Source of the DNA: Sphingomonas sediminicola
GTDB lineage: Bacteria; Pseudomonadota; Alphaproteobacteria; Sphingomonadales; Sphingomonadaceae
Length of the DNA stretch: 64,000 nt
Reading direction: 5' to 3'
Assembly (NCBI RefSeq): GCF_014489515.1
Contig: NZ_CP060782.1
Coordinates: 1,612,001 to 1,676,000, forward strand
Shown: piece after piece, positions 8,310 to 38,408 of the stretch
Position numbering within the stretch: the stretch's first letter is position 1
How the letters are laid out: every line of letters begins with the position of its first letter
The notes under the pieces: generated by a model
What the model was told of the DNA's origin: nothing
The model's database searches: none
What the model saw: only the letters and a program-made list of their open reading frames with translations
Translations under genes and position numbers: made by a program

Positions 8310-9021
8310 AACCATTACGATTGCCGCCATCGGCGACCTCCACGTCGCCGAGAACAGCACCGCCCCGTATCGCGAGATGTTCGCGGAGATCTCTCGCGTC
8401 GCGGATGTGCTCGTTCTCTGCGGCGACCTCACAAATTTCGGGAAGACGAGCGAGGCCGAAATCCTGGCGGAGGATATCCAAACCTCGGCGATCCCAGTCA
8501 TTGGCGTGCTCGGCAACCACGATTACGAATGCGGGCAGCCCGAAGTCGTCGCCGAGATTCTTCATGAGGCGGGAATGACCGTGCTCGACGAGCAGGCAAT
8601 CGAGATCAAGGGCGTCGGTTTTGCCGGCGTCAAAGGCTTCATGGGCGGATACGGGCGCGGCGAGCTCGCCCCGTTCGGTGAGCCCATCGCTAAAGCGTTC
8701 GTCGACGAGGCGATGAACGAGGCTCGCAAGCTCGAGAATGGGTTGCGCTCATTGCGCACCGAACGCAGCGTTGCGGTGCTTCATTACTCCCCGATCATCG
8801 ACACGCTCGAAGGCGAACCGATCGAGATTTTTCAGTACCTGGGGTCGGCGCGTCTGGCGGATGCGATCGACCGCTTCGACCATGTGAAGGCTGTCGTTCA
8901 CGGCCATGCACATCACGGAAAATATGAAGGCCAGACGGTGCGCGGGGTTCCCGTCTACAACGTCGCGCAATTCGTGGTCCGCGAGCAATTCAAGCGCCCC
9001 TACGCGCTGCTCGAAATCTAG
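8296..9021 (+). CDS. Calcineurin-like metallophosphoesterase
   Basis: The 241-residue protein carries the metal-binding motifs of the family in order: GDLHVAEN (residues 14-21), LCGDLTNFG, LGNHDYECG, LHYSPI and VHGHAHHGKYEG. These provide the D-x-H, GD, GNHD, H and GHxH ligands of a dinuclear site. No signal peptide is present, so it is cytosolic. The start at 8296 lies inside the nucleotidyltransferase gene (14-base overlap), and its end overlaps the converging AI-2E gene by 4 bases. The substrate is unknown; family members cut phosphodiesters and cyclic nucleotides. Confidence 0.88.
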   Translation: MPSTETITIAAIGDLHVAENSTAPYREMFAEISRVADVLVLCGDLTNFGKTSEAEILAEDIQTSAIPVIGVLGNHDYECGQPEVVAEILHEAGMTVLDEQAIEIKGVGFAGVKGFMGGYGRGELAPFGEPIAKAFVDEAMNEARKLENGLRSLRTERSVAVLHYSPIIDTLEGEPIEIFQYLGSARLADAIDRFDHVKAVVHGHAHHGKYEGQTVRGVPVYNVAQFVVREQFKRPYALLEI

Positions 9022-10070
9022 TCCTTGCCCTTGCCCGGGATGCTGGTGGGCGTGTGCAGCGTTTCGATGACGTAGAGCCGCTTCACGAGGACGTAGCAAA
9101 CGACGGTGAGAGGGGCCGCAAGGATTACTCCCAACGTCCCGAACAGAGCGCCGAAAGCGATGAGCGAGAAGAGTAGAACGACACCGGGAAGGTCGACCGC
9201 ATATTGCTGGACCAGTGGGGTCAGCACGTAGCCCTCGAACTGCTGAACCGCGAAATAGAGGAGTAGCACCCAGAGCGCGATCTCAGGGCTCACCGCAAGC
9301 GCGAGCAGGATTGCCGGCACGGCCGAAAGGATCGGCCCAGCGAACGGAATGAACTCCAGAATCCCCGCCAGCAGGCCAAGCGTCAGCGCCGACGGCATAG
9401 CAAGTGCCCAAAGCCCAAGGCCCGTGAGCAATCCGACGACGATCATCGCAATGAGCTGGCCGCGAAGCCAAAGGCGCATGGCCTGCTCGGATTCCATGAT
9501 CGATTCCAGCGCGAGCGCGCGCTTCGTCGGCGGGATAAGCTTGACGGCGCCCGTGAGATAGAAACGCGGCTGGGTAGCCAGGAAGATGCCCGCCACGATG
9601 ACCACGAGGACGTCGGCGATGCCGCTGCCGATCGACAGGATGGTCTTGCCGAAAGCGGAGAAGCTGCTTCCTCCTGGAGCACGGATGCTCTGCGCGAGGG
9701 TCTTGATCTGCTCGCCCAAGCCAAGGTCGCCCATTCGCGCTTCGAATGCCCGCCACGCCGCGGGGATCGCCTCGCGCAGAGTCTGAACCTGCGCCGCCAC
9801 GTGCGAACCGAAGAGCGCGACCAGCCCGATCGCGACCCCGAGAATGATCGTGATCGACAGTGCGACGGCTATGCCGGGCTTGCAGCCGATCAGCTTTTCC
9901 AGCCGGTCGCCGAGGGCACGAAACACCGTCGCCACGACGACCGCGCCGAAGAACATGAGGAGGAGCGTCCTGAGTTGCCACGCAATCAGGAAGAGCGCGG
10001 TCAGACCGAGGACGATCAAGACCCGATGGACGAACTGGCGGTCGCTCTTTTCGTCCACCTTGCGCGCCAT
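9018..10070 (-). CDS. AI-2E family transporter (permease)
   Basis: The 350-residue membrane protein shows the AI-2E/YdiK-type pattern: paired N-terminal helices (VLIVLGLTALFLIAWQL, LLLMFFGAVVVATVFRAL), a helical soluble loop, then a C-terminal set of helices with ILEFIPFAGPILSAVPAILL and FAVQQFEGYVLTPLV. Its ATG shares a base with the TGA of the E2 gene (TGATG), so it is the last gene of the paa polycistron. Family members export small molecules or ions; in this context transport of an aromatic acid is possible but unproven. Confidence 0.88.
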   Translation of the reverse strand: MARKVDEKSDRQFVHRVLIVLGLTALFLIAWQLRTLLLMFFGAVVVATVFRALGDRLEKLIGCKPGIAVALSITIILGVAIGLVALFGSHVAAQVQTLREAIPAAWRAFEARMGDLGLGEQIKTLAQSIRAPGGSSFSAFGKTILSIGSGIADVLVVIVAGIFLATQPRFYLTGAVKLIPPTKRALALESIMESEQAMRLWLRGQLIAMIVVGLLTGLGLWALAMPSALTLGLLAGILEFIPFAGPILSAVPAILLALAVSPEIALWVLLLYFAVQQFEGYVLTPLVQQYAVDLPGVVLLFSLIAFGALFGTLGVILAAPLTVVCYVLVKRLYVIETLHTPTSIPGKGKD

Positions 10071-11257
10071 CAGGCTGCCGGCCAGCTTTCGAGGATCTGC
10101 ACGAAGCGGCTGAGCCAGGCGTTCGTCTGGTGACCGTCGACTACGCGATGGTCGATGGTCAGCGTGACGTAAGCCATCGGACGAACGAGGATGGCGTCCT
10201 GCCCGCCCACTTCCCGAACGATCACGCGTTTCTCGAGCTTGCCGACGCCGAGGATTGCTGCCTGCCCCTGATGCAGGATGATCGGCGCCGCGAGTAGCGA
10301 GCCGGACACGCCGTGGTTGGAGATGGTGAAGCTGCCGCCGGACACGTCCGAGCGGTCGAGCTTCCCTTCCCGGGCTCGTCGGGTGAGGTCTTCGAGCTCT
10401 GCGCCTACCTGCTCCAGCGAAAGTGAACCCGCGTCTTTCACGACGGGGACGACGAGCCCCTTCTCGCCGAGCGCAGTGCCGACGCCGATGTCGATCGTTG
10501 GCGAGATGGCGATGCGGTCCTTTTCCCAGCGCCCGTTGATCGCAGGCGCGACCGCCATGGCCTCGGCCGCCGCCCTCACGATGTAGGCGGTGTAACTGAG
10601 CTTCGTGCCTCTCGCGGCCATCGCGGTCTTGTGCGCGGCGATCGCCGAGAAGTCCGCTTCGAAGACCGCAGTGACATGCGGCGCTTCGCTGACCGCGCGG
10701 ACCATGTTCTCCGCGATCGTCATCCGCATGCGATCGTGCGGAATGTCCTGGGCCAAGAAATTGCGCGGCTGGGCGGTGGCCCGCTCGCCGACACTAACGA
10801 CGGTTGCCGACGCAACGAGGCGATCGACGTCCTCGCGGGTGATGCGTCCGTTGCGTCCCGTACCGCTGACCCGCGACGGGTCGATCCCGTGCTGCAGGCA
10901 AGCGCGCCGGACCGACGGCGATAGCCTCGTCTCGATCTCGCTGACGGGCTGTTGCAGCGGAGCTGCTTGCGAACGGACCGAAGGTTGATCCGCCTTCGCC
11001 GGGGTGGCCTGTTCGGAAGGAGCATCCTTCGTGCTGATTCGACCAAGCAGCGCTCCCGGAACCGCTTCGGCATCCGTGTTCAGGACGATCTCAGTCAGGA
11101 CCCCGGCTGCCGGCGACGGCACTTCCTGAGTGACCTTGTCGGTCTCTAGCTCGACCAAAGGATCGTTCTCGGCGACCGCATCGCCAATCTGCTTGAGCCA
11201 GGCGCGGACGACCGCCTTTGTGCCTTCCTGCTCGTCGGGAACGCGGATCTCGATCAA
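10070..11257 (-). CDS. 2-oxoacid dehydrogenase E2 (dihydrolipoyl acyltransferase)
   Basis: The 395-residue enzyme has one N-terminal lipoyl domain (lipoyl lysine in VELETDKVTQEV, near residue 42), a peripheral subunit-binding domain (SPSVRRACLQHGIDPSRVSG, about 110-145), and a catalytic domain ending with DHRVVDGHQTNAWL, the HxxxDG active site. It transfers an acyl group from lipoamide to CoA. It starts with TTG two bases after the E1 stop, so it is coupled to E1. No E3 gene is present here. The neighbours (paa genes, aminotransferase) suggest phenylacetyl or branched-chain acyl as the acyl group. Phenylacetyl is my inference. Confidence 0.9.
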   Translation of the reverse strand: MIEIRVPDEQEGTKAVVRAWLKQIGDAVAENDPLVELETDKVTQEVPSPAAGVLTEIVLNTDAEAVPGALLGRISTKDAPSEQATPAKADQPSVRSQAAPLQQPVSEIETRLSPSVRRACLQHGIDPSRVSGTGRNGRITREDVDRLVASATVVSVGERATAQPRNFLAQDIPHDRMRMTIAENMVRAVSEAPHVTAVFEADFSAIAAHKTAMAARGTKLSYTAYIVRAAAEAMAVAPAINGRWEKDRIAISPTIDIGVGTALGEKGLVVPVVKDAGSLSLEQVGAELEDLTRRAREGKLDRSDVSGGSFTISNHGVSGSLLAAPIILHQGQAAILGVGKLEKRVIVREVGGQDAILVRPMAYVTLTIDHRVVDGHQTNAWLSRFVQILESWPAA

Positions 11258-11258
11258 T

Positions 11259-13315
11259 TCAGAACCCTACCAGCCGGTCAATCTCGGAACGAATGCGCTC
11301 GACCGTCGGAAGCGCCCATTCCATCAGCTTGGGATGGTGGGGGCTCGGGATGTCCGGCATGGTTACCCGAGCAACCGGCGCGTCGAGGTCGAGGAAGGCT
11401 TCGTCGGCGACGACCGCGGCAATCTCCGCGCCGAAGCCGCCGGTCCGAAGATCCTCATGCACGATCAGGCAGCGCCTCGTGCGGCGAATGCTCTCAAGCA
11501 CCATCTCGCGGTCCCAAGGCATGAGCGTGCGCAAATCGATGACGTCGGCGGAGTTGCCATCAGCGGCAGCTTCGCAGCGCGGTACCATCGCACCCCAGGT
11601 GACGATCGTAATCCGATCTCCCTCGCGGGTCTTCTTCGCCCGCCCGAACGGCAGGACGTAATCGTCGCCCGGCCACGGCCGCCGCGCCCAGCTGTCGTCG
11701 AGCATCGCGCGATGTTCGAAGAAGAGCACCGGATCATTGCCGCGAAGCGAGCCGCGCAACAGTCCGACCGCGTCCTCGGCATTCGAAGGAACAGCGACCT
11801 TCCAGCCCGGATTGTGGACGAACTGAACTTCGTTCGTCTGGCTGTGCCACGGGTCGCCGCACTTGAAGAAGCCACCCGGCACTCGAAGCACCATCGGCGC
11901 CGCGTAACGGTTGTGGGTCCGCCAGCGCATCGTCCCGCAGTCGTTGATCTGCTCAGTCGCGGGCTCGGCATATTTTCGAAACTGGATTTCTGGCACGGGC
12001 ATCAGGCCGGCCAGCGCCATTCCGACGGCCCGGCCAACGATGCCTTCCTCGTTAAGCGACGTGTCGAAGACCCGATCGCGGCCGAACTTCTCCTGAAGTC
12101 CAAGTGTCACGGCGTGGACGCCGCCCTTCGGTCCAACGTCTTCGCCAAACACGCAAACGCGCGGATTGGTGCTGAGCTCCTGGTCCAGCACCCGGCGGAT
12201 CGCCGTGACCATGTTGATGCGCTGACCTTCAGGCTTCGGCTCGTCCGTCGACGGCGGGGCCTTGTAGCCGGCGTTCCAAAGCCCGCCGACCTGCTGCATC
12301 TCGCCATCGAAAAAGACATGGTCGGTGACGACTTCCGGCTTGGAGATCCCGCGGCTCTCCGCATCTGCACGAGCAGCGCCGACTTCCCAGGCGACCTCGC
12401 TTTCGATCCGCTCCCAGTCGTCGTCGCCGATCTGGAATGAAGAACAATGCGCCTTGAGCCTGGGCAGCGGATCGCGTGCCCACTCGGCCTCGATTTCCGC
12501 TTCGGACTTGTAGCTTTGTGTGTCCTGGAAGCTGTGCCCTCGAGACGCGGTACCGTCAGCCGTAACATTACCGGTGCCCGCTTGGTCCGAACGTGCCTGA
12601 CCGCTTCCCTCACCAGCCGCTCCGCCTCGATCGGGTCGGTGCCGTCGCCGTTGAAAATTGTCAGACCCGAGAAGCTCGCGAGGTTCGCCGCAATATCCTT
12701 GCCAGGTGTTTGATATTCCGACGGAACGGAGATTCCATAGCCGTTGTCCTCGACGTAAATTAGCAGCGGCAATTGTTGCGTCGTCGCAATGGTTAACGCA
12801 GACCAAAATCCACCGGTAGCGCAGCTCGCGTCTCCGCCGAGCACCAAAGCAATGGCATCGTCGGGCCCTTCGTTCAGGACCTTGGTCTTGTAGTCGATGG
12901 CCTGCGCCCAACCGGTCGCGGGCGTGTACTGGGCCCCTACCCCGCCGCTCATCGGCAGGGCATGAGCGCCACCGAGGTTCGGGTAATTGAAGACCACGCC
13001 GATATCGCGGCCATCGGAATAACCGCCGGCCAGGCCCATCCCGGAGCCGAGCGCATCGGCAAGCGGAACTCCCAGCGCCAACAGCAAAGGCCGCGAGCGG
13101 TAGTAACCGCACGCCGCATCGCCATCCTTAAGCTGGAGACCGAGCAGCACCTGCGCCATGTCGTGGCCGCGTGCCGAAAACTGGTAGAGGACCTTCTTGG
13201 CGGGGACGAGCTCCTGCTCTTCCAGACGGTCCATTTCCCGGCTGGTCAAAACCAGCCTCGCGACCTCGCGCCAATTCACGTCAGCGGAAACCTTGCCCGG
13301 GTCGCGGTCAGCCAT
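11259..13315 (-). CDS. 2-oxoacid dehydrogenase E1, fused alpha-beta (frameshifted)
   Basis: One polypeptide of about 685 residues carries both halves of a thiamine-diphosphate E1. The alpha half has FSARGHDMAQVLLG, GDASCATGGFWSAL and EDNGYGISVP (ThDP motif), and the loop HSFQDTQSYKSEAEI. The beta half starts around VTAIRRVLDQEL and has GEDVGPKGGV, FDTSLNEEGIVGRAVG and RVPGGFFKCGD. A -1 frameshift at about 12535-12538 splits it within PRLEG/HSFQDTQ; adding one C restores it. The fused form is typical of branched-chain-type E1 in some bacteria. It lies 6 bases after the aminotransferase gene and directly before E2, so substrate and pathway are probably shared. Confidence 0.85.
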
Positions 13316-13321
13316 GGCGAG

Positions 13322-14521
13322 TTACGCGTCCAGCGCCTCGACCACGGCGGCGGTAAATCGATCGATCTGATCGTCACCGAGGCCGACGACGTTGAAGCGG
13401 CCGCTATCGGCCATGTAGATCGCATGCTTCTCCCTCAGCGCGAGCACCTTCTCCCTGCTTAGTGGGAGCATGGAGAACATTCCGAACTGATTGCCGATGT
13501 ACGCGAGACGCGGATCGACGGACGCAATGCGCTTCCGGACCGCATTGATCCGGTCGCGCATCGCGGCGAGCTCGCCCGGCCAACGGTCGCGGAGCTCCGG
13601 CGTGTCGAGCACTAGCCGGACAGCGGCCGCGCCGTGGTCGGGCGGCATCGACCACATCTCGCGAGCCCGCTGGAAGACGTGTCCCATCGCCCGCGCAGTC
13701 GTTTCTTCCGAGCCCGTTTTCAGGAACAGGGAACCGACGCGGTCGCGATAGACGCTAAAATTCTTGTCGCAGCTCTGCGCGACGATCACCTCGCTGCACG
13801 AGCGAAGCATCAGCCGGACGCCTGCGGCATCCTCTTCGAGCCCGCGCCCGAAGCCCTGGTAGGCGATGTCCACCAACGGAAGCAGCTTCCGCTCGGCGCA
13901 GACGCTCGCGACTGCGGCCCACTCGTCCGGGCTCAAGTCCGCTCCAGTCGGATTGTGGCAGCAGCCGTGGAGCAGGACGACGTCCCCGGCCCGGGCGTTC
14001 TCGAGCGCCCCCATCATGCTGTCGAACAGAACGGCGGAATTCTCGCGGTCGTAATAGGGATATTCGACGATCTGGAGACCGACGGCGCGAATGATCGGTG
14101 GATGGTTCGGCCAGGTCGGAGTGCCGACGTGAACGCGCGCCTGCGGATTGACCGTCGCGATCAGCTCGAAGCCGAGCCGGAGCGCGCCGCAGCCGCCCGG
14201 GGTCTGCACGCCTGCAATCTTGTTATCGTCGGCATGGTCGCCGAGGAGAATCGGACGGATCAGCTCGGCAAAACGCTTGTCGCCTGCGCTCCCGAGATAG
14301 GACTTGGTCTCCTGGGTCTCGAGCAGGATGCGCTCGGCATCCTTGATCACCGGGAGGATGGGTGTGCGACCGACACCGTCGCGAAAGACGCCGACGCCGA
14401 CGTCGATCTTCTCCTGCCGGGGATCGGCATTGCAGAGCGCAATCAGTTGGAGAAGCGAATCGCTCTCGACCGGTGGAAGATCAGCCAGTCCCCTGGCGCG
14501 CGCGTCGGTTTCGCTCAGCAT
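13322..14521 (-). CDS. Aromatic/aspartate-type aminotransferase (class I)
   Basis: This is a 399-residue PLP-dependent aminotransferase of the AspC/TyrB group: GVGVFRDGVGRTPIL near the start, YLGSAGDKRFAELI, TPGGCGALRLGFEL, HGCCHNPTGADLS, VDIAYQGFGRGLEED, and the PLP lysine in SCDKNFSVYRDRVG. The N-terminal VGVFRDG and Arg near the C-terminus (DSGRFNVVGL) bind the dicarboxylate co-substrate. It sits 18 bases after paaE and 6 bases before the E1 gene. With the paa genes around it, the likely reaction is phenylalanine to phenylpyruvate. Confidence 0.9.
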   Translation of the reverse strand: MLSETDARARGLADLPPVESDSLLQLIALCNADPRQEKIDVGVGVFRDGVGRTPILPVIKDAERILLETQETKSYLGSAGDKRFAELIRPILLGDHADDNKIAGVQTPGGCGALRLGFELIATVNPQARVHVGTPTWPNHPPIIRAVGLQIVEYPYYDRENSAVLFDSMMGALENARAGDVVLLHGCCHNPTGADLSPDEWAAVASVCAERKLLPLVDIAYQGFGRGLEEDAAGVRLMLRSCSEVIVAQSCDKNFSVYRDRVGSLFLKTGSEETTARAMGHVFQRAREMWSMPPDHGAAAVRLVLDTPELRDRWPGELAAMRDRINAVRKRIASVDPRLAYIGNQFGMFSMLPLSREKVLALREKHAIYMADSGRFNVVGLGDDQIDRFTAAVVEALDA

Positions 14522-14539
14522 GAAGCGCGTCTAGCGCGC

Positions 14540-15613
14540 CTAAGCGTCGTAATCCACTGCGACCCCATCGCCGACCGGAACCGACTGGCAGGTCAGCACG
14601 TAACCGGCCGCGACTTCCTCGTCGGTAAGGCCATAGCGGGCCGCCATCTCGACCTTGCCGCTGGTGACTTTCGCCCGGCAGGTCGCGCAGACGCCCGCCT
14701 TGCAAGCGAAGGGCGCAGGCAGACCGGAAGCGCGCGCGCTGTCGAGGATGTTCGCTTCGGTGAAGGCGACGCGGCGGGTGCGTCCGTCGAGCGTCACAGA
14801 CATGGTCGCGCCGGCAGCCTTGGTCTGCAGCTGCGCCATCTCCGCCGCGAGCGCAGCCGAAGGCCGGTCGGCGGTGAAGCGTTCAATGTGGATGCGCTCG
14901 TTGTCGACGTTGCGCTCGAGCAAAGTGCCTTCCGCCGCATCCATCATCGGACCAGGACCGCAGATGAACCAGGCATCGACGCTTGCCGGATCGCCGATCA
15001 GAGCAGTGATCGCTTCGTCGCAGCGCGTCCGGTCAAGCATTCCGTTGAAAAGGTCGATGTCACCCTCTTCCTCTGCGAGGAAATGGTGGAGCGACAACCG
15101 ACCCAGGTAGCGATCCTTCAGATCGGCCAGCTTTTCGAGGAAGATGATCGAGCTGCTGTCGCGATTGCCGTAGAGCAAGGTGAACTGGCTGTCCGGTTCT
15201 TCCTTCAGCGTGGTTCGCAAAAGCGACAGGACCGGCGTGATGCCCGAGCCGCCAGCAATCCCAACAATGTGGCGTTTGGCGGCAGGCGCGAATTCGGTCG
15301 TGAAGCTGCCATGCGGAGGCATGACTTCGACCGTGTCGCCGGCCTTAAGGCTATCGCCGACCCAGTTCGAAAAAACGCCGCCGGCGATGCGCTTAACCGT
15401 GACCATCCAGTCCTGCTCTGCCGGCGCAGTGCACAGTGAGTAGTTCCGGCGAACTTCTTCACCGCCGATGGTCGCTTTCAACGTCAGATGCTGTCCGGCT
15501 TTGAAGGCGAAAGCGTCGCCAAGCTCCGTTGGGATTTCGAAGCGGATCGAATTGGCTTCGGCGGTCTCGGGAATAATCTCCGCGACCTTCAGCGGGTAGA
15601 AGTGCGCGCTCAT
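14540..15613 (-). CDS. paaE: PaaE, phenylacetyl-CoA epoxidase reductase subunit
   Basis: The 357-residue protein has an FAD domain (RNYSLCTAPAEQDWMVTVKR), an NAD(P) domain (IVGIAGGSGITPVLSLLRT; TLLYGNRDSSSIIFL; FICGPGPMMDAAE) and a C-terminal plant-type 2Fe-2S domain (CKAGVCATCRAKV, then CQS). It passes electrons from NADPH to the PaaAC oxygenase. Its ATG overlaps the paaC stop by one base (TAATG). The paaD gene normally found between paaC and paaE is missing. Confidence 0.95.
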   Translation of the reverse strand: MSAHFYPLKVAEIIPETAEANSIRFEIPTELGDAFAFKAGQHLTLKATIGGEEVRRNYSLCTAPAEQDWMVTVKRIAGGVFSNWVGDSLKAGDTVEVMPPHGSFTTEFAPAAKRHIVGIAGGSGITPVLSLLRTTLKEEPDSQFTLLYGNRDSSSIIFLEKLADLKDRYLGRLSLHHFLAEEEGDIDLFNGMLDRTRCDEAITALIGDPASVDAWFICGPGPMMDAAEGTLLERNVDNERIHIERFTADRPSAALAAEMAQLQTKAAGATMSVTLDGRTRRVAFTEANILDSARASGLPAPFACKAGVCATCRAKVTSGKVEMAARYGLTDEEVAAGYVLTCQSVPVGDGVAVDYDA

Positions 15614-16380
15614 TACCAGGTCGCGTCGGGGTATGTGCGCGGCAGGAACTGCATGACCGCGAGGACGTGACCGAGATGCTCGCTGTGATGCCCGCGCCGG
15701 CCACCTAGGATCGGGCGCTGGTCGGCGGGACCCTCAAGCTTCGCTTCCGCGAGAACGGCCGCGATCGCCGAACGATATTCGTCTTCGAACTCGCGCGGGT
15801 CGGGAGCAATGCGGCGATCGATCAGCGCTTGCAGCGTCTCGTCGACCTCGAACAGCTCCGGCACAAAGCGCCAGTTCCAGTCGAGCCCCTCGGTCATCCG
15901 CTGGGCGCTCTCTTCGGTGCCGTCACCGAGGCGGATCACCCACTCGGATGACAGCTCGCGATGGTAGGCAACTTCCTTCACCGCCTTCGATGCGAACTCA
16001 ACGAGGAAGCGATCGCTTGACCGTGCCAGCCGCTGGAAGAGCATATGCTGCCAGGTCGAGAACAGCAGGTGACGCGCCATCGTCCGGGCGAAGTCGCCGT
16101 TCGGCTGCTCGACCAGCAAGCAATTGCGGAAATCGAGAACGTCCCGGTGGAACGCCAGTTTGTCGCCGTCGCCAGCGCCCGCCTCTTCCAGCAAATGCGT
16201 CGCCTGCCCGATCAGGTCGAGCGACAGGTTCGCGAGGCTGAGATCGACCTCCAGTACCGGCGCGTGTCCGCACCATTCGCCCAGGCGCTGGCCGAGGATC
16301 AGCGAGTCATCGCCAAGACGAAGCAGATAATCGTGACGAGCGTCGACCGGTGGGGCGTCGACTGGCGAAGCGGTCGCCAT
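15613..16380 (-). CDS. paaC: PaaC, phenylacetyl-CoA epoxidase structural subunit
   Basis: The 255-residue helical protein contains YLLRLGDDSLILGQRLGEWC, DLIGQATHLLEEAG, RELSSEWVIRLGDGTEES and GRRGHHSEHLGHVLAVMQ, the usual PaaC landmarks. PaaC pairs with PaaA to form the catalytic subcomplex of the ring 1,2-phenylacetyl-CoA epoxidase but lacks its own diiron catalysis. It starts at the paaB stop (shared base at 16380) and its end overlaps the paaE start, so translation is coupled. Confidence 0.95.
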   Translation of the reverse strand: MATASPVDAPPVDARHDYLLRLGDDSLILGQRLGEWCGHAPVLEVDLSLANLSLDLIGQATHLLEEAGAGDGDKLAFHRDVLDFRNCLLVEQPNGDFARTMARHLLFSTWQHMLFQRLARSSDRFLVEFASKAVKEVAYHRELSSEWVIRLGDGTEESAQRMTEGLDWNWRFVPELFEVDETLQALIDRRIAPDPREFEDEYRSAIAAVLAEAKLEGPADQRPILGGRRGHHSEHLGHVLAVMQFLPRTYPDATW

Positions 16381-16664
16381 CAGATGTGCTTCACCTCGTC
16401 CGGGATGTCGTAGAAGGTCGGGTGCCGGTAGATCTTGTCGGCTGCCGGTTCGAACAATTCGCCCGCCTGCTCGGGGTCCGACGCGACGATCGCCGCCGAA
16501 GGCACCACCCAGATGCTCACGCCTTCCTGGCGCCGCGTATACGTGTCTCGCGCGTGGCGGAGCGCGAGCTCCGCGTCAGGAGCATGAACGCTGCCAAAGT
16601 GGCGATGCGAAAGACCGCCCTTGGTGCGGACGAAAACTTCCCAGAGCGGCCAGTCATGGCTCAT
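16380..16664 (-). CDS. paaB: PaaB, phenylacetyl-CoA epoxidase small subunit
   Basis: The 94-residue protein shows the full PaaB pattern: [53 protein letters not shown] and a C-terminal [16 protein letters not shown]. PaaB bridges PaaAC dimers in the epoxidase. It overlaps paaA by 4 bases and shares a base with paaC. Confidence 0.96.
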
Positions 16665-17641
16665 GCCGCCTTCCTTGCCCGACGCTTCTCTTCATGCGCC
16701 GCGGCAGCATCCCGGACCCAGGCGCCGTCCTCCCAAGCCTTGCGGCGAGCCTCCATTCGTTCCTTCGCAACCGGGCCCTCACCGCGGACGACCGAGTAGA
16801 ATTCCTCCCAGTCGATCTCGCCGAAGTCGTAGCCGCCCTTGCTCTCGTTCCACTCGAGCGCCTGGTCGGGGACCTTGAGGCCGAGGAAATCCGCCTGAGG
16901 GACAGTGATGTCGACGAACTTCTGGCGAAGCTCGTCATTGGTCTCGCGCTTGATCCGCCAGCGCATCGACTGCGCGGTGTTCGGGCTGTCGGCGTCGGGC
17001 GGGCCAAACATCATCAGCGACGGCCACCACCAGCGGTTGAGAGCGTCCTGCGCCATTCGCTTCTGCTCGGGCGTGCCGTTTGCCATGGTGATCATGATCT
17101 CGTAGCCCTGGCGCTGGTGGAAGCTTTCTTCCTTGCAAACGCGGACCATAGCACGGGCATAGGGTCCGTAGCTCGTCCGCTGCAGCGGCACCTGGTTCAT
17201 GATTGCCGCACCATCGACGAGCCAGCCGATCGCGCCGATGTCCGCCCAGGTCAGCGTCGGATAATTGAAGATCGTCGAGTACTTAGCCTTGCCGCAGTGC
17301 AGAGCCTCGATCATCTCCTCGCGGCTCGTTCCGAGTGTCTCCGCCGCGCAATAAAGGTAGAGGCCGTGGCCGGCCTCATCCTGCACCTTGGCGAGCAGGA
17401 TCGCCTTGCGACGCAGCGACGGCGCACGCGTGATCCAGTTCCCTTCCGGAAGCATGCCGACGATTTCGCTGTGCGCATGCTGCGAGATCTGCCGCGTCAG
17501 GGTGCGGCGATAGGCCTCTGGCATCCAGTCCTTCGGCTCGATGAACTCGTCAGCCGCAACGCGCGCCTCGAACGCTTCGAGGAGCTTGGGGTCCTCGAGG
17601 TTCTGGATCTTCGCCGTCTTCGAAAGCTCGGTCGTGTACAT
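16661..17641 (-). CDS. paaA: PaaA, phenylacetyl-CoA epoxidase catalytic subunit
   Basis: The 326-residue protein holds the carboxylate-bridged diiron site of the ring 1,2-phenylacetyl-CoA epoxidase. Visible landmarks are [40 protein letters not shown] (E-x-x-H ligand pair), [20 protein letters not shown] and [15 protein letters not shown] (second E-x-x-H pair). The length fits the family. It is the first paa gene of the polycistron; 49 bases upstream lies a hypothetical exported gene on the same strand, so the promoter may be further upstream. Confidence 0.96.
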
Positions 17642-18221: not shown

Positions 18222-18659
18222 TTAAGATTCGGTATCGGCTTCCATGATCGGTCCGCCGATGGTTCTCGAATAACCGGTAAATTCGGCGATCGGCCGTCCG
18301 TCGGCGGTGCGGACGTGAACGCGGGTCACGCCTCCCCGGCCGACGCGGCTCATCTCCTCGCCTTCGGCAATAAGCGTTTCACCTTCCTTCGCCGCATCCA
18401 GGAAGACGATCGAGGCCTGCGCCGCGACGGTCCGCTCATTGTTGCCGTTGCAGACATAGGCGAAAGCCGTGTCGGCAAGGCTGAACACCATGCCGCCATG
18501 CGCGATGCGATGGCCGTTGAGCATGTCTTCGCGAAGCACCATTCGCAGCCTCACATATCCAGCGCGCGCTTCCTCGATGACGATCCCCCAGGACGGCCCA
18601 GTTCCTTCGGAGGCGAGCATCTCCTGCGCGACGCGATTGGCCAGTTCGTCTGCGTCCAC
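18222..18659 (-). CDS. paaI: PaaI, hotdog-fold acyl-CoA thioesterase
   Basis: The 145-residue hotdog protein has the PaaI signature: LREDMLNGHRIAHGGMVFSL at about 39-58 with the catalytic HGG context and Asp in LADTAFAYVCNGN, then VAAQASIVFLDAAKEGETL and GGVTRVHVRTADGRPIAEF. PaaI hydrolyses ring-hydroxylated phenylacetyl-CoA species and rescues CoA from dead-end products. It is divergent from paaG, with 65 bases between starts, so both probably share a control region. Confidence 0.93.
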   Translation of the reverse strand: MDADELANRVAQEMLASEGTGPSWGIVIEEARAGYVRLRMVLREDMLNGHRIAHGGMVFSLADTAFAYVCNGNNERTVAAQASIVFLDAAKEGETLIAEGEEMSRVGRGGVTRVHVRTADGRPIAEFTGYSRTIGGPIMEADTES

Positions 18660-18724: not shown

Positions 18725-19510
18725 ATGGCCGAATTCGAGAGCATCATCGTCGACCATCACGGTTCGATCGCGCGGATCACGCTCAACCGGCCCGACCGCC
18801 TCAACAGCTTCACCGCTGCGATGCACGAGGAACTGAAGAATGCGATCGACGAGATTGGAGACGCCAAGGTCGTCGTCCTGACTGGCGCCGGCCGCGGCTT
18901 TTGTGCTGGCCAGGATTTGAACGATCGCGCCGTTTCCAGCGGAGGGCATCCGGTCGATCTCGGGATGACCGTCGAGACGTCCTGGAACCCCCTGATCCGG
19001 AAGCTCACGAACCTGCGGCAGCCGGTCATTGCCCGGGTCAATGGTGTTGCGGCGGGAGCGGGAGCCAATGTGGCGCTCGCCTGCGACATGGTGGTCGCTG
19101 CGCGGTCGGCGAAATTCATCCAGAGTTTCTCGGCGATCGGCCTCATCCCGGACAGCGGAGGCACCTGGGTTCTTCCGCGCCTCGTCGGTCAGGCCCGCGC
19201 GATGGGACTAGCGCTCACCGGCGAGCCGCTTTCGGCAGAAAAGGCCGAGGAATGGGGCCTGATCTGGAAATGCGTCGACGATGAAGCGCTTGATTCAGAG
19301 GTCGACGCAATCGCGCAGAAGCTCGCCTCGCTACCGCCGTTGGGGCTGACGGCGATCAAGAAGATGATCCGCGAAAGCTGGTCTCACACGCTCGACCAGG
19401 AATTGAACCATCAGCGCGATGCAATGCGCCGGCTTGGGTTCAGCGAAGACTATCGCGAAGGCGTTTCCGCCTTCCTTGAAAAGAGGCAGCCGAATTTCGT
19501 CGGAAGGTGA
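18725..19510 (+). CDS. paaG: PaaG, epoxyphenylacetyl-CoA isomerase
   Basis: The 261-residue crotonase-fold enzyme contains ITLNRPDRLNSFTAAMHEEL, LTGAGRGFCAGQDLNDR (oxyanion hole and typical PaaG AGQDL), NGVAAGAGANVALACDMVVA and FSAIGLIPDSGGTWVLPRL with the catalytic Asp (IGLIPDSG). It converts the ring epoxide of phenylacetyl-CoA to the oxepin form. I chose the ATG at 18725 because GGGGAGAG lies just upstream. It is divergent from paaI. Confidence 0.93.
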   Translation: MAEFESIIVDHHGSIARITLNRPDRLNSFTAAMHEELKNAIDEIGDAKVVVLTGAGRGFCAGQDLNDRAVSSGGHPVDLGMTVETSWNPLIRKLTNLRQPVIARVNGVAAGAGANVALACDMVVAARSAKFIQSFSAIGLIPDSGGTWVLPRLVGQARAMGLALTGEPLSAEKAEEWGLIWKCVDDEALDSEVDAIAQKLASLPPLGLTAIKKMIRESWSHTLDQELNHQRDAMRRLGFSEDYREGVSAFLEKRQPNFVGR

Positions 19511-20586: not shown

Positions 20587-22606
20587 ATGAAGACCGCGCA
20601 ACTGCTGAACTATGCTTTCGACCGCTGGACTCCGGGGAGGGCAATCTCGCCGAGCTCACCTGCGCGATCGACGGCGCACCCGTTGCGACGGCCGGCTCGG
20701 GCGGGCTCGATTTCGGGGCGATGCTCAAGCACGCACGCGAGGTTGGCGGGCCGGCGCTTCGCAAGCTGACCTTTCACGAGCGGGCGCGGATGCTGAAGGC
20801 GCTCGGCCAAGCGATCATGGCGCGGAAGGAAGAGCTGTACGAGCTCAACTATCTGACCGGCGCGACCCGCAAGGACGGATGGATCGACATCGAAGGCGGC
20901 GCGGGCACGCTCTTCTCCTTCTCGTCCAAGGGCCGGCGCGAGTTGCCGGACGCTCACGTGCTGATGGACGGCGCGTTGGAACCCTTGTCGAAGGAAGGAA
21001 CCTTCGTCGGCCAGCACATCTACACGCCGCTCCAGGGAGCGGCGCTGCACATCAACGCCTTCAATTTCCCGGTCTGGGGAATGCTGGAGAAGCTGGCCCC
21101 GACCCTGCTCGCCGGAATGCCGGCGATCGTGAAGCCGGCTTCGGCGACCTCCTATCTCACCGAAGCGGCATTCCGGATAATGATTGAGTCCGGTGTGCTT
21201 CCAACCGGAGCGGTGCAGCTGATCGTTGGCGGAGTCGGTGACCTGTTCGACCATCTCGGCGGCCAGGACGTGGTGAGCTTCACCGGCTCAGCCTCCACGG
21301 CGCTCAAGTTGCGCACGCATCCGGTGGTCATGCGCGAGTCCGTTCGGTTCATCGCCGAGCAGGACAGCCTCAATGCCTCGGTCCTCGGACCCGACGCCGC
21401 GCCTGGGACGCCGGAATTCGACTTGTTCGTTCGGGAGGTCGCGACGGAGATGACGGTAAAGGCGGGCCAGAAGTGCACCGCTATCCGTCGCGCAATGGCT
21501 CCGGCCGATTACCTCGATGCCGTTCAGGAAGCGCTGGCGGAGCGTCTCGCAGGCACGAAGGTCGGCGATCCCCGTGCCGACGACACGGGCATGGGCGCGC
21601 TCGTAAGCCTCTCCCAGCGCGACGACGTTCGGCAGAAAATCGCTGAACTAGAAGCGGCCGGCGCAAAAATCGTATCGGGCGATCCTTCGGCCGATTCGCC
21701 CATCGCCGGCGGCGCCTTTCTTTCACCGGTCCTCCTTCGCGCAGACGATCCCTGGAAGTCCTCCGCAGTGCACGATGTCGAGCCGTTCGGCCCCGTCTCC
21801 ACGATCATGCCGTACAAGAACATGGACGACGCCATCGCCCTGGCGAACCGCGGGATGGGCAGTCTTGCCCTCTCGCTGTTCACCCATTCGGCTGATGCTG
21901 CGCGCGACTTCATCGGCGGCGCGGCTGCCTATCACGGCCGGATGCTCGTCATCGACCGCACCAATTCGAAGGAATCGACGGGTCACGGCTCACCCCTTCC
22001 CGTCCTCGTCCACGGGGGCCCGGCCGCGCGGGCGGCGGCGAAGAAATGGGCGGCATCCGCGGCGTGAAGCACTACATGCAGCGCACCGCGATCCAGTCAT
22101 CGCCGACGATGATCGCCGCGATCACCAGCCAGTACATTCCCGGAGCGCCCAAGCGCATCATCGACCTACATCCCTTCCGTCTCCGGATGTCGGAATTGAA
22201 CGTCGGCGACACGTGGAAGACCGACAGCCGCACCGTGAGCATCGAAGACATCGAGCATTTCGCGGAATTCACGGGCGACAAGTTCTACGCCCACATGGAC
22301 GAGGAAGCGGCCAAGGCTTCCCCGATCTTCGAGGGTCGCGTTGCGCACGGCTATCTCATCCTGAGCTTCGCTGCAGGCCTGTTCGTCGACCCCGATCCGG
22401 GTCCCGTGCTCGCTAACACCGGCCTTGAGAACCTGCGCTTCCTGACACCGCTCTACCCCGGGGATTCCATGCGAGTGGAGCTCAGCGTCCGCTCCAAGTC
22501 GCTGAAGAGCGAGGAAACGGGCGTGGTTCGCTGGGCGGTAGAGATCTTCAACCAGAAGGACGAACTCGTCGCGACCTATGACCTCCTGACCGAGAACGTT
22601 CCTTAA
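20587..22606 (+). CDS. paaZ: PaaZ, oxepin-CoA hydrolase / aldehyde dehydrogenase (frameshifted)
   Basis: The reconstructed protein of about 673 residues has the two PaaZ domains. Residues 1-490 are an NADP aldehyde dehydrogenase (INAFNFPVWGMLEKLAPTLL, VVSFTGSASTALKLR, catalytic Cys in VKAGQKCTAIRRA). The C-terminal part is a MaoC-type hydratase (FAEFTGDKFYAHMDEEAAKA, GRVAHGYLILSFAAGLFVDP). It opens the oxepin ring and oxidises the aldehyde. Two -1 frameshifts interrupt it: in GGGG at 20634-20637 and near 22022 (CCCGG). Restoring a G at each joins all three frames, the second bridging GGP to GRAGGGEEMGG. Confidence 0.9.
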
Positions 22607-28624: not shown

Positions 28625-29797
28625 ATGGCGACGCACCTGAAATCGATTGAGCCGACGAAGGACCCGCTGGAGGACCTCAGCCTCCCCGGCTGGCTATACT
28701 TCGACCCGGAATTTTTCGATGCCGAGAAGCGCGCGTTCCTTCGCGCTGCGCCGCAAATCGTTTGCCACGAGAGCGAGATCGCCCAGCCGGGCGATTGGCG
28801 CACGCTCGAATATCTCGGCGAAAGCATCATCGTCATTCGCGGCGACGACGGCGAGATCCGTGCTTTCTCGAACATCTGCCGGCATCGCGGGTCCCGGCTG
28901 GTCGATGGCGAAAGGGGATGCTCGAAGGTCCTGACCTGTCCCTATCACGCGTGGAGCTTTTCGCGTGACGGGCGCCTCGTCGGCATTCCGCACCGGCAGG
29001 AGTATCCTGGGCTGCAGACGGAGAAGCTCGGACTTTTCCCGGTCGCACTCGAGAACTGGCGCGGCTTCCTGTTCATCACGCTCGAGCCAGGCGTGCCGGC
29101 GGTCGCCGAGATCATGGCGCCCTACGAGGAAGAGATTGAGCCCTACCGCTTCAGGGAATTGAGGGCGCTTCAACAGGTTCGCCTGCGGCCGCGGTCGCTC
29201 AACTGGAAGACGATCGCCGACAATTATTCCGACCACTTGCATATCCCGGTCGGCCATCCGGGCCTGACCCGCCTATTCGGCCGGAGTTACCGGATCGAAG
29301 CGCAGGAATGGGTCGACAAGATGGAAGGCGACCTGGTCGATAAGGAGTCGACCAATCCGTCGGAGCGCATCTACCAGCACCATCTTCCGTCGGTAGATCA
29401 CCTGCCGGAGAGTCACCAGCGCAAGTGGCTCTATTACAAGCTATTCCCCAACGTCGCGTTCGACATCTATCCTGACCAAGTCGACTTCATGCAGTTCCTG
29501 CCGATCAGCGCAACCGAGAGCGTCATCCGAGAGATCAGCTATGCGCTTCCCGACGACCGCCGCGAGATGAAGGCGGTGCGCTACCTCAACTGGCGCATCA
29601 ACCGCCGCGTCAATGCCGAGGACACCGAGCTGATCACTCGAGTGCAGCTCGGCATGCAGTCGCCGGCCTATGTCGCGGGGCCGCTGGGAACCAGCGAAGT
29701 CTGCCTGCGCAGCTTTGCCAGCAAGCTCAGGCGGATGATCCCGGAGGCGCGACTGGAATCGCCACCGCCGGCAGGTTGGTCTCGGCACTCGAATTAA
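28625..29797 (+). CDS. Rieske non-heme iron oxygenase, large subunit
   Basis: The protein of about 390 residues has the Rieske 2Fe-2S motif (NICRHRGSRLVDGERG then CPYHAWSFSRDGRL) near residues 80-115 and the ring-hydroxylase catalytic domain. The mononuclear iron ligands are likely in DNYSDHLHIPVGHPG. No small subunit, ferredoxin or reductase gene is adjacent. The substrate is unknown; phenylpropionate, choline-type or amine substrates are possible for such enzymes. It lies downstream of the GST/MarR pair and overlaps the converging permease gene by 71 bases. Confidence 0.88.
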   Translation: MATHLKSIEPTKDPLEDLSLPGWLYFDPEFFDAEKRAFLRAAPQIVCHESEIAQPGDWRTLEYLGESIIVIRGDDGEIRAFSNICRHRGSRLVDGERGCSKVLTCPYHAWSFSRDGRLVGIPHRQEYPGLQTEKLGLFPVALENWRGFLFITLEPGVPAVAEIMAPYEEEIEPYRFRELRALQQVRLRPRSLNWKTIADNYSDHLHIPVGHPGLTRLFGRSYRIEAQEWVDKMEGDLVDKESTNPSERIYQHHLPSVDHLPESHQRKWLYYKLFPNVAFDIYPDQVDFMQFLPISATESVIREISYALPDDRREMKAVRYLNWRINRRVNAEDTELITRVQLGMQSPAYVAGPLGTSEVCLRSFASKLRRMIPEARLESPPPAGWSRHSN

Positions 29798-31055
29798 AGC
29801 GGCGCATCGCAGCCCGGATTGCCAACCCGACTGCCAATAGTGCGATGCACCAGAGATCGGCTTCAAGACCGGTCCCGTAAGTTCCGAAGGCCAGGAACAG
29901 GATCGCCACCACGACAACAGACCGGGAGCCGACGGTCGAGCTTGCCTTCCACGCCACGAATGCGCCGGCAAAATACAAGAGGACGATAGCCGCCGTCGAA
30001 AGCAGGATGATGAAGGTATAAAGGTCGGCGGTAGAGCGGCTGCTGTTGGCGAAAACGAGCAGGATGCAAAGCACCGACCCGACGATTTGCGAGAAGTAAG
30101 GCGTGTTCGCTCCGCGCGTCCGGGTCATCACCGACGGAAGGTCTCCTCGCAGAGCCATCGAGTAGCCCAGCTCACCCGTGACCAGGATCAGGCCGTTCAG
30201 GCAGCCGATCGCGCTGACCGCGATCGCGAGCGCCGCAAGAGACGCAGCGCCGTGGCCCCAGCGGGACGCAAGGGCGTCGGCAAACGGCGCTGGAGATGCC
30301 ACGATGACGTCCACCGGCAGGAGCAGCTGAATGCCGGTGCCCGCGAGCATGTAAAGCAGCACCACGAAGACGGTCCCGCCGAAGATCGCTCGCGGAAGCG
30401 TCCGCTCGGGATCCCGGACCTTGCACACGGGAGCGGTTGCGGATTCGAACCCGGTCAAAGCGTAAAACGTCATGGCGGTGGCCGCGGCGATGTTCGCGAA
30501 CGTAACCGCTGCCGGCGCGAGGGCTTGGTAGCCGGCCCCGCTCGCGCCGCGCTCGAACAGCAGGGAGATTACCGCGAGGAGCGGCAACACCTTGATCGCT
30601 ACGGTCAGGATTTGCAGGCCGCCGACGGCCCGTGCCCCGATCGCATTGTAGGCCGTCAAGATGACGACCGAGGTAATCGCTACCGGAACGACCGAGGCGG
30701 GTCCGCCGAACGGCGGTCCGATGAACGAGAGGGTCGAGCCAACTGCAATCGCGAGCGACGCAAGCGCGACCCAGTTGGACACCCAGAAACTCCACGCGAC
30801 CAGAAATCCGACCGTGGGCCCGAATTGCCGCTCGATATTGGCCTGGATCCCGTCGCCCCCGCACTGCGAAAGCCGGGCAAGCGCGAAGGCCACGCAGAGC
30901 ATTCCAAAGCCGCTGACAAGCCAGCCGATCACGGCATTCCTGCCGAGAGGCGCAAGGCTAACCGGAAGCATGAAAATGGCCGCGCCGATGATCGTCCCGA
31001 CTACCAAGGCAGAGGTCATCCAGATGCCCATCTTGCCGTCGTCACTGTCTGCCAT
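29727..31055 (-). CDS. APC family amino acid permease
   Basis: The 442-residue protein has about 12 hydrophobic segments in the amino acid-polyamine-organocation pattern. The first helix reads TSALVVGTIIGAAIFMLPVS with the GAAIFMLP substrate-binding break, and AMTFYALTGFESATAPVCKV resembles helix 6. A second APC gene (31110-32432) lies just upstream on the same strand, so the two probably arose by duplication and form one transcript. The substrate is not clear; agmatine/ornithine-type antiport is possible. Confidence 0.87.
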   Translation of the reverse strand: MADSDDGKMGIWMTSALVVGTIIGAAIFMLPVSLAPLGRNAVIGWLVSGFGMLCVAFALARLSQCGGDGIQANIERQFGPTVGFLVAWSFWVSNWVALASLAIAVGSTLSFIGPPFGGPASVVPVAITSVVILTAYNAIGARAVGGLQILTVAIKVLPLLAVISLLFERGASGAGYQALAPAAVTFANIAAATAMTFYALTGFESATAPVCKVRDPERTLPRAIFGGTVFVVLLYMLAGTGIQLLLPVDVIVASPAPFADALASRWGHGAASLAALAIAVSAIGCLNGLILVTGELGYSMALRGDLPSVMTRTRGANTPYFSQIVGSVLCILLVFANSSRSTADLYTFIILLSTAAIVLLYFAGAFVAWKASSTVGSRSVVVVAILFLAFGTYGTGLEADLWCIALLAVGLAIRAAMRRFNSSAETNLPAVAIPVAPPGSSA

Positions 31056-31109: not shown

Positions 31110-32432
31110 CTATTCCGGGACCCTCGCCCGCTTCATCAGGAAATAGACCGGAATGCCGGTCGCGAGCAGTCCCGCGCCCCAGGCGGTCGCCTGCCCGCCC
31201 GCGCCGTAGAATGTCCAGAGAGCGTAAGTCGCGCCGACAAGCGCTGCGGCCGTGACCGTAGCTCCCTTCGCCTGTCCCCGCTTCAGCAGGGCAAGCATCG
31301 TCAGGGCCCCAGCGAGGTACAGTACCAGCGTCGCCGCCGTCGCTAGCAAGATGATGAAGGAGTAGATTTCGATCATTCCACTACTGAGGTTGGTCGCAAT
31401 CAGCGCGACGCTGAGGCCGCAACCGAGGATTTGCGCGTAAACCGGCGCGCCCTTTTCGTTCACCCTGGCAAAGAATCTCGGGAAGACTCCGCGCTCGGCA
31501 AGCACCAGCGGAACTTCCGCCTGGAGGAACACCCAGCCATTGAGCGCGCCCAATGCGCTGATCGCCGCGAAGGCCGCGATCACCTTGCCAGCCTCTGAGC
31601 CCCAGACGCGGCTCATCAGATCCGCGAGCGGGGCGGTCGACTTTGCCGCAACTTCCGACGGCAAGAGCAGAAAAACCGCGAAGGTCACCAGCACATAGAT
31701 GATCCCGACGAACAAGGTCCCGATCAGCGTCGCCCGGGCAATGGTCCGCCCTGGATCGATCACTCGGCCGGCGGGAACCGTCCCCGCTTCGAAACCCTGC
31801 ATGGCCCAAAGCGCAAGCGCGGCTGAGCCGGCAATTGCTGCACCCCCGACGGGCATGGGCGCGATGTTCATTGTGCCTGCCGCGGATGTCCCGCCGCCAC
31901 CGCCGAAAACCACGGCTGCCAGCAAAATTACCGCAAGAAGCGGTATGATCTTGAGCACCGTCGTGACGATCTGCACTGAACCGGACGCCCTGACGCCGCG
32001 CAGAGCGACGGCGGTCATCGCTATGACCAATGCGATTGCGGTCAACGGACCGGCGGCGGGCCGGGCAAAGAATTCCGGGGCGAAGGGCTCCAGATAGCTC
32101 ACCAGCCCGATGCCGATGGCGGCATTGGTGACCCACTGCGAAATCCAATAGGCCCACATGACGAAGAATCCGGCCATGGGACCGAATGCGCTGGCGATAT
32201 AATCATACGGCCCGCCCGCGTTCGGGATCGTCCGGGCAAGCTCCGCGAAGACATATGCCAGGCAAAGCGCGCCGCCGACGGTGATTGCCCAGCCGTAGAG
32301 CGCATTCCAGCCGAACGGGGCGAGCGCCGCCGGTAGCAGGAAAATCCCGGTCCCGATGGTATTGCCGATGACGAGAGCGAGGCAGGTCCAGAAGCCGATC
32401 TGACGCGGCGGGGCCTGTATCTCGTGTGTCAT
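31110..32432 (-). CDS. APC family amino acid permease
   Basis: The protein of about 440 residues is a second APC permease: GFWTCLALVIGNTIGTGIFL (helix 1), ARTIPNAGGPYDYIASAFGP, ALALWAMQGFEAGTVPAGRV (helix 6). It is more distant from the other copy than a recent duplicate would be. I chose the ATG at 32432; a GTG-type frame is open to 32456. It is divergent from fabD. Confidence 0.87.
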   Translation of the reverse strand: MTHEIQAPPRQIGFWTCLALVIGNTIGTGIFLLPAALAPFGWNALYGWAITVGGALCLAYVFAELARTIPNAGGPYDYIASAFGPMAGFFVMWAYWISQWVTNAAIGIGLVSYLEPFAPEFFARPAAGPLTAIALVIAMTAVALRGVRASGSVQIVTTVLKIIPLLAVILLAAVVFGGGGGTSAAGTMNIAPMPVGGAAIAGSAALALWAMQGFEAGTVPAGRVIDPGRTIARATLIGTLFVGIIYVLVTFAVFLLLPSEVAAKSTAPLADLMSRVWGSEAGKVIAAFAAISALGALNGWVFLQAEVPLVLAERGVFPRFFARVNEKGAPVYAQILGCGLSVALIATNLSSGMIEIYSFIILLATAATLVLYLAGALTMLALLKRGQAKGATVTAAALVGATYALWTFYGAGGQATAWGAGLLATGIPVYFLMKRARVPE

Positions 32433-32502
32433 TGCCGCAAGGTGTTGCAGCTTCACCGCCCCTGTGCAATCGGCGCGGCCTTCAAGAAACGACGGGGCTC
32501 CA

Positions 32503-36474: not shown

Positions 36475-38408
<1,934 letters not shown>

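Follow-up and report, generated by a model that had tools for sequence, protein, structure and literature searches.

Genes of the paa locus in Sphingomonas sediminicola

We analysed a window of 64,000 nucleotides from Sphingomonas sediminicola (contig NZ_CP060782.1; G000:C1:1612001-1676000 in our numbering), part of a 2.757-Mb one-contig assembly with a completeness score of 90.6%. On its minus strand, from 17641 down to 9018, the genes of phenylacetyl-coenzyme A (CoA) epoxidase are followed by those of an aromatic amino acid aminotransferase, a fused 2-oxoacid dehydrogenase (E1), an acyltransferase (E2) and a permease, in the order paaA-paaB-paaC-paaE-aminotransferase-E1-E2-permease (Table 1). 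The subject of this work is the E1/E2 pair, a candidate phenylpyruvate dehydrogenase complex. From paaA through the permease gene, the intergenic distances are -4, -1, -1, 18, 6, 1 and -1 bases. An earlier note on this DNA described the genes as a single one-strand run; the order, the coordinates and the gaps of at most 18 bases agree with that description, but E1 does not occupy a single frame here.

We take the PaaABCE epoxidase to be complete: PaaA, PaaB and PaaC score above their model cut-offs, and PaaE is accepted on its position and domains. E1 and E2 have the domains of a pyruvate dehydrogenase (PDH)- or branched-chain 2-oxoacid dehydrogenase (BCKDH)-type complex, for which an E3 is available elsewhere in the genome. 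In E2, the motif ETDKVT is presumably the lipoyl lysine site, and we take DHRVVDG to be the catalytic His motif (DHRxxDG).

Table 1. Genes of the operon and of its divergent neighbourhood, in window coordinates
Feature	Position	Strand	Family or domain match
paaA, phenylacetyl-CoA epoxidase subunit	16661..17641	-	TIGR02156, 530.4 bits (cut-off 280)
paaB	16380..16664	-	TIGR02157, 144.6 bits (cut-off 85.45)
paaC	15613..16380	-	TIGR02158, 263.3 bits (cut-off 133.35)
paaE, reductase subunit	14540..15613	-	TIGR02160, 405 bits (just below cut-off 420.8); ferredoxin, NAD and FAD domains
AspC/TyrB-type aromatic amino acid aminotransferase	13322..14521	-	PRK09257 'aromatic amino acid transaminase', 472.3 bits (cut-off 377)
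Fused E1, N-terminal piece (alpha, thiamine diphosphate-binding)	12512..13315	-	PF00676; tblastn frames
Fused E1, C-terminal piece (alpha end and beta), other frame	11259..12539	-	PF02779, PF02780; tblastn frames
E2 acyltransferase with one lipoyl, one E3-binding and one catalytic domain	10070..11257	-	PF00364, PF02817, PF00198
AI-2E family permease, 1-base overlap with E2	9018..10070	-	PF01594
paaI, (hydroxy)phenylacetyl-CoA thioesterase, upstream on the operon strand	18222..18659	-	TIGR02286, 125.8 bits (cut-off 118.9)
paaG, epoxide isomerase, divergent	18725..19510	+	TIGR02280, 378.7 bits (cut-off 345.15)
paaZ, bifunctional ring-opening enzyme, divergent, frame-broken near 22022-22040	20613..22603	+	TIGR02278, 647.9 bits (first piece)

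Genetic linkage of E1/E2 with paa genes

We scored E1, PaaA and PaaK, the phenylacetate-CoA ligase, by bits in a sample of 296 Sphingomonadales genomes (the order sample). The E1 scores are bimodal: 33 genomes reach at least 558 bits, and the next match has 271. The order paaA-B-C-E-aminotransferase-E1-E2 is kept in all 22 other genomes of the genus that were examined, which excludes a synteny confined to one genome. Outside the genus the arrangement varies. One genome has paaABCE-E1-E2 (G140), two have the aminotransferase, E1 and E2 together with paaZ and paaG, with paaA 7-9 kb away (G135 and G173), and two have E1-E2-paaG-paaZ (G007 and G033). In G272, paaA-B, paaI, paaG, paaZ, the aminotransferase, E1 and E2 lie in one stretch, with PaaK between them.

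The permease, which the earlier note counted as a member of the operon, is found in five of the 22 same-genus 20-kb loci and also beside E2 in L105, a locus of S. daechungensis KACC 18115. It thus lies outside the widely conserved unit, and its presence looks incidental. We considered it as the operon's phenylalanine transporter and rejected it, as it belongs to the AI-2E family and is not conserved. Elsewhere in the window, two neighbouring frames on the minus strand (29727-31055 and 31110-32456) resemble amino-acid permeases, as judged by eye.

We then collected the best 80 of 289 E1 relatives found in a scan of a genome collection (the named loci), nine of which come from genomes also present in the order sample. 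They belong to Sphingomonadales, Hyphomonadaceae, Caulobacterales, Rhizobiaceae, Acetobacteraceae, Burkholderiales, Pseudomonas and others, and are 67-88% identical. At least one core paa gene lies near E1 in 55 of the 80, namely 20/20 of those close to the genus and 35/60 of the others (48/71 once the nine duplicates are dropped). The linkage is seen in several gene orders, in Alpha-, Beta- and Gammaproteobacteria. E2 was detected in 77 of the 80 stretches, and an aminotransferase match of at least 38% identity somewhere in 52. As a control, five selected paralogous E1 loci (L066-L070) gave no paa match (0/5).

A phylum-wide sample of 398 genomes, which includes our own genome and partly repeats the order sample, yielded four new carriers, two of which are linked. 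In G642, paaABCE adjoins E1-E2; in G483, from another class and with an E1 58% identical, E1-E2-paaG-paaI-paaK-paaA-B-C are on one strand. G450 and G703 showed no paa linkage in the stretch examined; the G703 stretch is a contig of 5.9 kb. E1 is also present in 90 plasmid records, including 76 from Sinorhizobium. In Rhizobium CCGE531, E1-E2-aminotransferase lie together with paaA-B-C-E and a divergent Lrp-type gene, and by coordinates E1 is about 2 kb from paaA in Rhizobium AB2/73.

A few loci have other neighbours. In L050 and L051 (G003 and G010), the E1/E2 stretch contains an RNase E/G-family gene, a histidinol dehydrogenase gene and a kinase-like gene. In L175 (S. meliloti USDA1157 pSymB, 8.3-12.2 kb), E1/E2 are accompanied by a divergent Lrp-type gene, and paa matches are lacking within 9 kb. 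The L150 locus of Methylobacterium sp. Leaf123 has an integrase and a transposase-like gene as neighbours of E1, with no E2 match, and no PaaA match was found in the genome; this E1 looks as if it were a stray copy.

Co-occurrence of E1 with PaaA and PaaK

PaaA was counted as present only above its model cut-off, so that five order-sample genomes with weaker matches count as PaaA-less. By this measure 69 of the 296 genomes have PaaA, including 33/33 E1 carriers and 36/263 non-carriers (Fisher 8e-25). Counted by genus, PaaA occurs in 10/10 genera with E1 and in 15/69 without (Fisher 2e-6). Because the genomes are related, these p-values overstate the evidence, and the count by genus is the fairer one. 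In the phylum-wide sample, E1 was found in five genomes (ours included) and PaaA in 68, and all five E1 genomes have PaaA. Among the named loci, paaA lies whole or in part inside 47; the 33 remaining genomes were checked genome-wide, and 29 of them have PaaA above the cut-off elsewhere. The co-occurrence of E1 with PaaA is thus near-perfect.

The pattern for PaaK is different. At a threshold of 500 bits (the model cut-off is 646), PaaK is present in 7/33 E1 carriers and in 28/36 other PaaA genomes of the order sample; a PaaK fragment at a contig end in G033 (124 bits) was counted as absent. Among the 50 named E1 genomes in which PaaK was looked for, 26 have it at 612 bits or more. The only full-length PaaK among the 23 genomes of the genus is in G176 (C1:418091-419341), which keeps the E1/E2 operon.

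In the S. sediminicola assembly, which is 90.6% complete, PaaK was not found, its best match being 25.8 bits against a cut-off of 646.3; the earlier note had called it absent from this DNA. Another enzyme of interest is indolepyruvate ferredoxin oxidoreductase (IOR), which reportedly carries out the direct conversion in Phaeobacter inhibens discussed below. IOR was not found in the genome either (IOR_alpha model, 28.3 bits against the 650.9 needed), and the only POR-domain locus was rejected as a candidate, being KorAB-like. With neither PaaK nor IOR detected, no such route to phenylacetyl-CoA was found in this genome.

The fused E1 family and other 2-oxoacid dehydrogenases

The closest competing explanation is that E1/E2 are a branched-chain 2-oxoacid dehydrogenase, or an enzyme of broad range, that stands in the paa operon by chance. 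2-Oxoacid dehydrogenases of broad range exist, and the best solved relatives of E1 beta are chains annotated as pyruvate dehydrogenase (1ik6), as 2-oxo acid dehydrogenase (1um9) or as 2-oxoisovalerate dehydrogenase (2bp7, 1qs0), names that do not indicate the substrate. The genome itself argues against this explanation. The E1 beta query gave four genomic matches: the operon copy, one at 373-377 kb, one at 1222 kb and a weak one of 34 bits. At C1:373-377 kb there is a separate E1alpha/E1beta/E2 operon, putatively of the branched-chain type, whose alpha and beta parts are encoded separately. In addition to the E2 genes of the paa operon and of the 373-kb operon, the genome has one of the PDH type (TIGR01349, 531 bits; cut-off 445) and one of the 2-oxoglutarate dehydrogenase (OGDH) type (PRK05704, 603 bits; cut-off 449). 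The E3 lipoamide dehydrogenase gene (TIGR01350, 543.8 bits; cut-off 408.8) comes next to the latter. The paa-operon E1/E2 would thus be the fourth complex of the genome and, since branched-chain-like, PDH-type and OGDH-type genes exist separately, it is not obviously the branched-chain enzyme.

The phylogeny points in the same direction. The earlier note had proposed comparing E1 with branched-chain and pyruvate enzymes; in a tree built from 112 E1 beta sequences, a branch supported at 100/99 separates the 104 fused sequences from eight paralogues, the bootstrap not being settled and some paralogue branches being very long. The fused proteins form a clade of their own, the five paralogue loci are devoid of paa genes, and E1 tracks PaaA, which would not be expected of a branched-chain enzyme. 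We therefore regard a chance placement of such an enzyme as unlikely.

The neighbours of E1/E2 are what an amino acid-induced 2-oxoacid dehydrogenase would have. The aminotransferases found next to E1/E2 in L131, L174, L106 and L177 all score above the cut-off of the 'aromatic amino acid transaminase' model that matches the window's protein. Their placement varies, being upstream in the genus of the window and in L106, downstream in L131 (Hyphomonadaceae) and L177 (Rhizobium), and divergent in L174 (G703). A divergent Lrp/AsnC-type gene lies less than 600 bases from E1 in 34 of the 80 named loci, with the family confirmed for seven. In four Shinella and one Martelella loci (L123, L133, L137, L144 and L145), an E3-like gene directly follows E2, as checked with Pfam in L123.

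Proposed route from phenylalanine to phenylacetyl-CoA

Taken together, these data suggest that the operon serves a phenylalanine-to-tricarboxylic acid (TCA) cycle route entered by a dedicated phenylpyruvate dehydrogenase complex. We consider this reading about 80% probable, the substrate, the product and the flux being predicted. The aminotransferase, going by its family, would convert phenylalanine to phenylpyruvate. By the mechanism of its family, the fused E1 would decarboxylate phenylpyruvate with thiamine diphosphate and load the lipoyl arm of E2 with the phenylacetyl group; E2 would then move this group onto CoA. A shared E3, the lipoamide dehydrogenase of the genome, would then re-oxidize the lipoyl arm and yield NADH. 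The phenylacetyl-CoA formed would be the substrate of PaaABCE from the same operon, and then of the divergently encoded PaaG and PaaZ. Such a route would need neither PaaK nor ATP.

To our knowledge, no 2-oxoacid occurs among the paa pathway's own intermediates, so that E1/E2 could join it only at the formation of phenylacetyl-CoA. The context thus strongly suggests that phenylpyruvate comes from the adjoining aromatic aminotransferase and that E1/E2 generate phenylacetyl-CoA from it. The conversion proposed in the earlier note gains strong comparative support from the co-occurrence with PaaA, the conserved linkage and the separate clade, with function predicted from context.

Alternatively, other arylpyruvates, namely 4-hydroxyphenylpyruvate or indolepyruvate, might be the main substrates of the complex, and PaaI would remove the hydroxylated CoA ester. 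In favour of this, the family of the aminotransferase covers aromatic amino acids generally, and paaI is in the cluster. Nevertheless, paaI was not seen in every linked locus, and the conserved partner is PaaA, whose substrate is generally known to be phenylacetyl-CoA, as also described in PMC13186573. Such a preference is distinctly unlikely in our view. A supply of phenylacetyl-CoA for tropone or a similar product, rather than for catabolism, can also be envisaged: according to PMC7497051, the paa pathway is diverted by bacteria that make tropone, and these may form phenylacetyl-CoA directly from phenylpyruvate. Against this, the PaaZ of a same-genus relative is a full bifunctional enzyme of 673 aa (TIGR02278, 1000 bits), and both pieces of the split PaaZ of the window match that enzyme. 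Judging from PaaZ, we deem this alternative highly improbable.

Several observations weigh against a dedicated phenylpyruvate dehydrogenase in the paa pathway. The linkage is incomplete: no paa gene was found in the stretch examined for four of the ten order-sample carriers outside the genus (G262, G158, G003 and G010), and no core paa gene in that of 25 of the 80 named loci, 13 of which are at least 20 kb. In S. meliloti 1021, about 42 kb of the circular pSymB separate E1 (NC_003078.1, 27348-29372) from paaA, and in Rhizobium T1473 the distance is about 817 kb by record coordinates. PaaA has no match in three of the E1 carriers (G314, G327 and G328) and only a fragment in a fourth (G301), and carriers share kinship and hence are not independent. 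The branched-chain identity of the 373-377 kb operon is itself presumed, and its E1alpha (338 bits) is below the cut-off of the PDH model (411). The best NCBIfam matches of E2 are sucB- and PDH-type models, far under their cut-offs, so that the family models give no substrate. In addition, the E1 of the window is itself frame-broken.

The PaaK distribution also includes contrary points. Full-length PaaK coexists with E1 in the carriers counted above (7/33 and 26/50), and the scarcity of PaaK comes mostly from a single genus, with PaaK missing from 22 of 23 genomes, plus G135, G173 and G140. Eight order-sample genomes have PaaA and neither E1 nor full-length PaaK (G009, G014, G024, G034, G038, G104, G113 and G179, some with fragmentary assemblies), which implies that another source of phenylacetyl-CoA exists or that assemblies are incomplete. 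The bypass of PaaK put forward in the earlier note thus agrees with the data for some lineages, but not as a general rule: where PaaK is also present, the complex would be an additional entry, and PaaK would be replaced only in some carriers.

The frame break in E1

The tblastn alignment of a relative's E1 places its residues 1-268 at 13315-12512 of the window and its residues 260-685 at 12539-11262 in a different frame, which locates the break between 12539 and 12512. Each of the 31 full-length orthologues in the order sample has the fused E1 as a single frame of ~680-705 residues, a 32nd being cut by a contig end, and 79 of the 80 named loci likewise have it in a single frame. The lone exception is L105, the nearest relative of the window by E1. 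In that complete genome, paaG and E1 are broken near 4887 and 10380 of the L105 locus, at positions unlike those of the window.

Other genes of the window are broken as well. In addition to paaZ, dnaK is split (model positions 1-341 and 342-625; break at 37515-37530), and fabD halts at position 199 of the 290 in its model and resumes in another frame, with the break at about 33060-33120. With paaZ, dnaK and fabD also broken within 64 kb, the E1 break is likely an assembly indel. A comparison of E1 beta codons between the window and its nearest relative gave a nonsynonymous rate (dN) of 0.059 and a synonymous rate (dS) of 1.12, indicating purifying selection. Decay of E1 in this lineage was rejected, given this selection, the other broken genes and the different break positions in the relative. 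A real recent mutation of E1 in this strain is possible.

Comparison with known systems

The nearest precedent appears to be PglB/PglC of pristinamycin biosynthesis in Streptomyces pristinaespiralis, a PDH-like enzyme proposed to convert phenylpyruvate to phenylacetyl-CoA for the phenylglycine of pristinamycin (PMC7089894) and termed phenylpyruvate dehydrogenase in PMC10685826. The likeness, drawn from its description, lies in a PDH-like E1 proposed to act on phenylpyruvate. In contrast with the operon described here, PglB/PglC supply an antibiotic precursor, their alpha and beta subunits are encoded by separate genes, and their operon has a dioxygenase, a thioesterase and an aminotransferase, the paa genes being described as a separate operon (PMC7089894).

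The canonical paa catabolon of E. coli and Pseudomonas shares PaaABCE, PaaG and PaaZ after phenylacetyl-CoA. It is entered through phenylacetate and the ATP-dependent PaaK (PMC13186573, PMC7497051), which spends ATP to AMP and pyrophosphate (PMC7497051), whereas entry would be by E1/E2 here. In Phaeobacter inhibens, phenylalanine is converted directly to phenylacetyl-CoA and phenylacetate is skipped (PMC7497051), as we propose for S. sediminicola. A route with phenylpyruvate decarboxylase, phenylacetaldehyde dehydrogenase and PaaK has the same start and end points (TpoG/IpdC, PMC11481866); it takes three enzymes and ATP, where a single complex would suffice here. Lastly, the branched-chain dehydrogenase BkdA/BkdB has the same E1/E2 domain make-up as the paa-operon complex, from which the putative BkdA/BkdB copy of this genome differs by its separate alpha and beta genes, its separate clade and the lack of paa linkage of the paralogue loci (0/5).

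In the open-licence literature, with subscription papers mostly outside the scope of the search, we found no report of a phenylpyruvate dehydrogenase complex in a paa operon. The degradation pathway is well studied; for this entry into it, no description was found. The term 'phenylpyruvate dehydrogenase' denotes other enzymes in PMC6223000, PMC7232325 and PMC9317967, and a figure legend of PMC12114110 names an indole-3-pyruvate enzyme. The word 'phenylpyruvate' appears nowhere in the main text of the GapMind carbon-source paper (PMC9007349) or of a 2026 pathway survey (PMC13186573). This survey works from the genome contexts of PaaK, and would thus miss carriers devoid of it. In the available part of a 2009 paper on the evolution of the cluster (PMC2653477), neither 'dehydrogenase' nor 'aminotransferase' occurs.

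Implications for the paa pathway

Beyond S. sediminicola, the fused E1 family is probably, if with less assurance than we have for the operon itself, a dedicated arylpyruvate (phenylpyruvate) dehydrogenase across Alpha-, Beta- and Gammaproteobacteria, with Pseudomonas and the megaplasmids of Sinorhizobium among its carriers. It would provide an ATP-free entry to the aerobic phenylacetyl-CoA pathway and would have replaced PaaK in several lineages. The usual definition of the paa pathway starts from PaaK and phenylacetate. If our reading is correct, one complex would supply phenylacetyl-CoA, and phenylalanine degradation would have an ATP-sparing route. A family for which the records examined give no annotation beyond 'pyruvate dehydrogenase' or 'transketolase C-terminal domain-containing protein' would gain a substrate, and many genomes with paa genes and no PaaK would be explained. 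Predictions of growth on phenylalanine versus phenylacetate would also become testable: lineages in which PaaK has been replaced would degrade phenylalanine via the paa pathway and would be unable to use phenylacetate.

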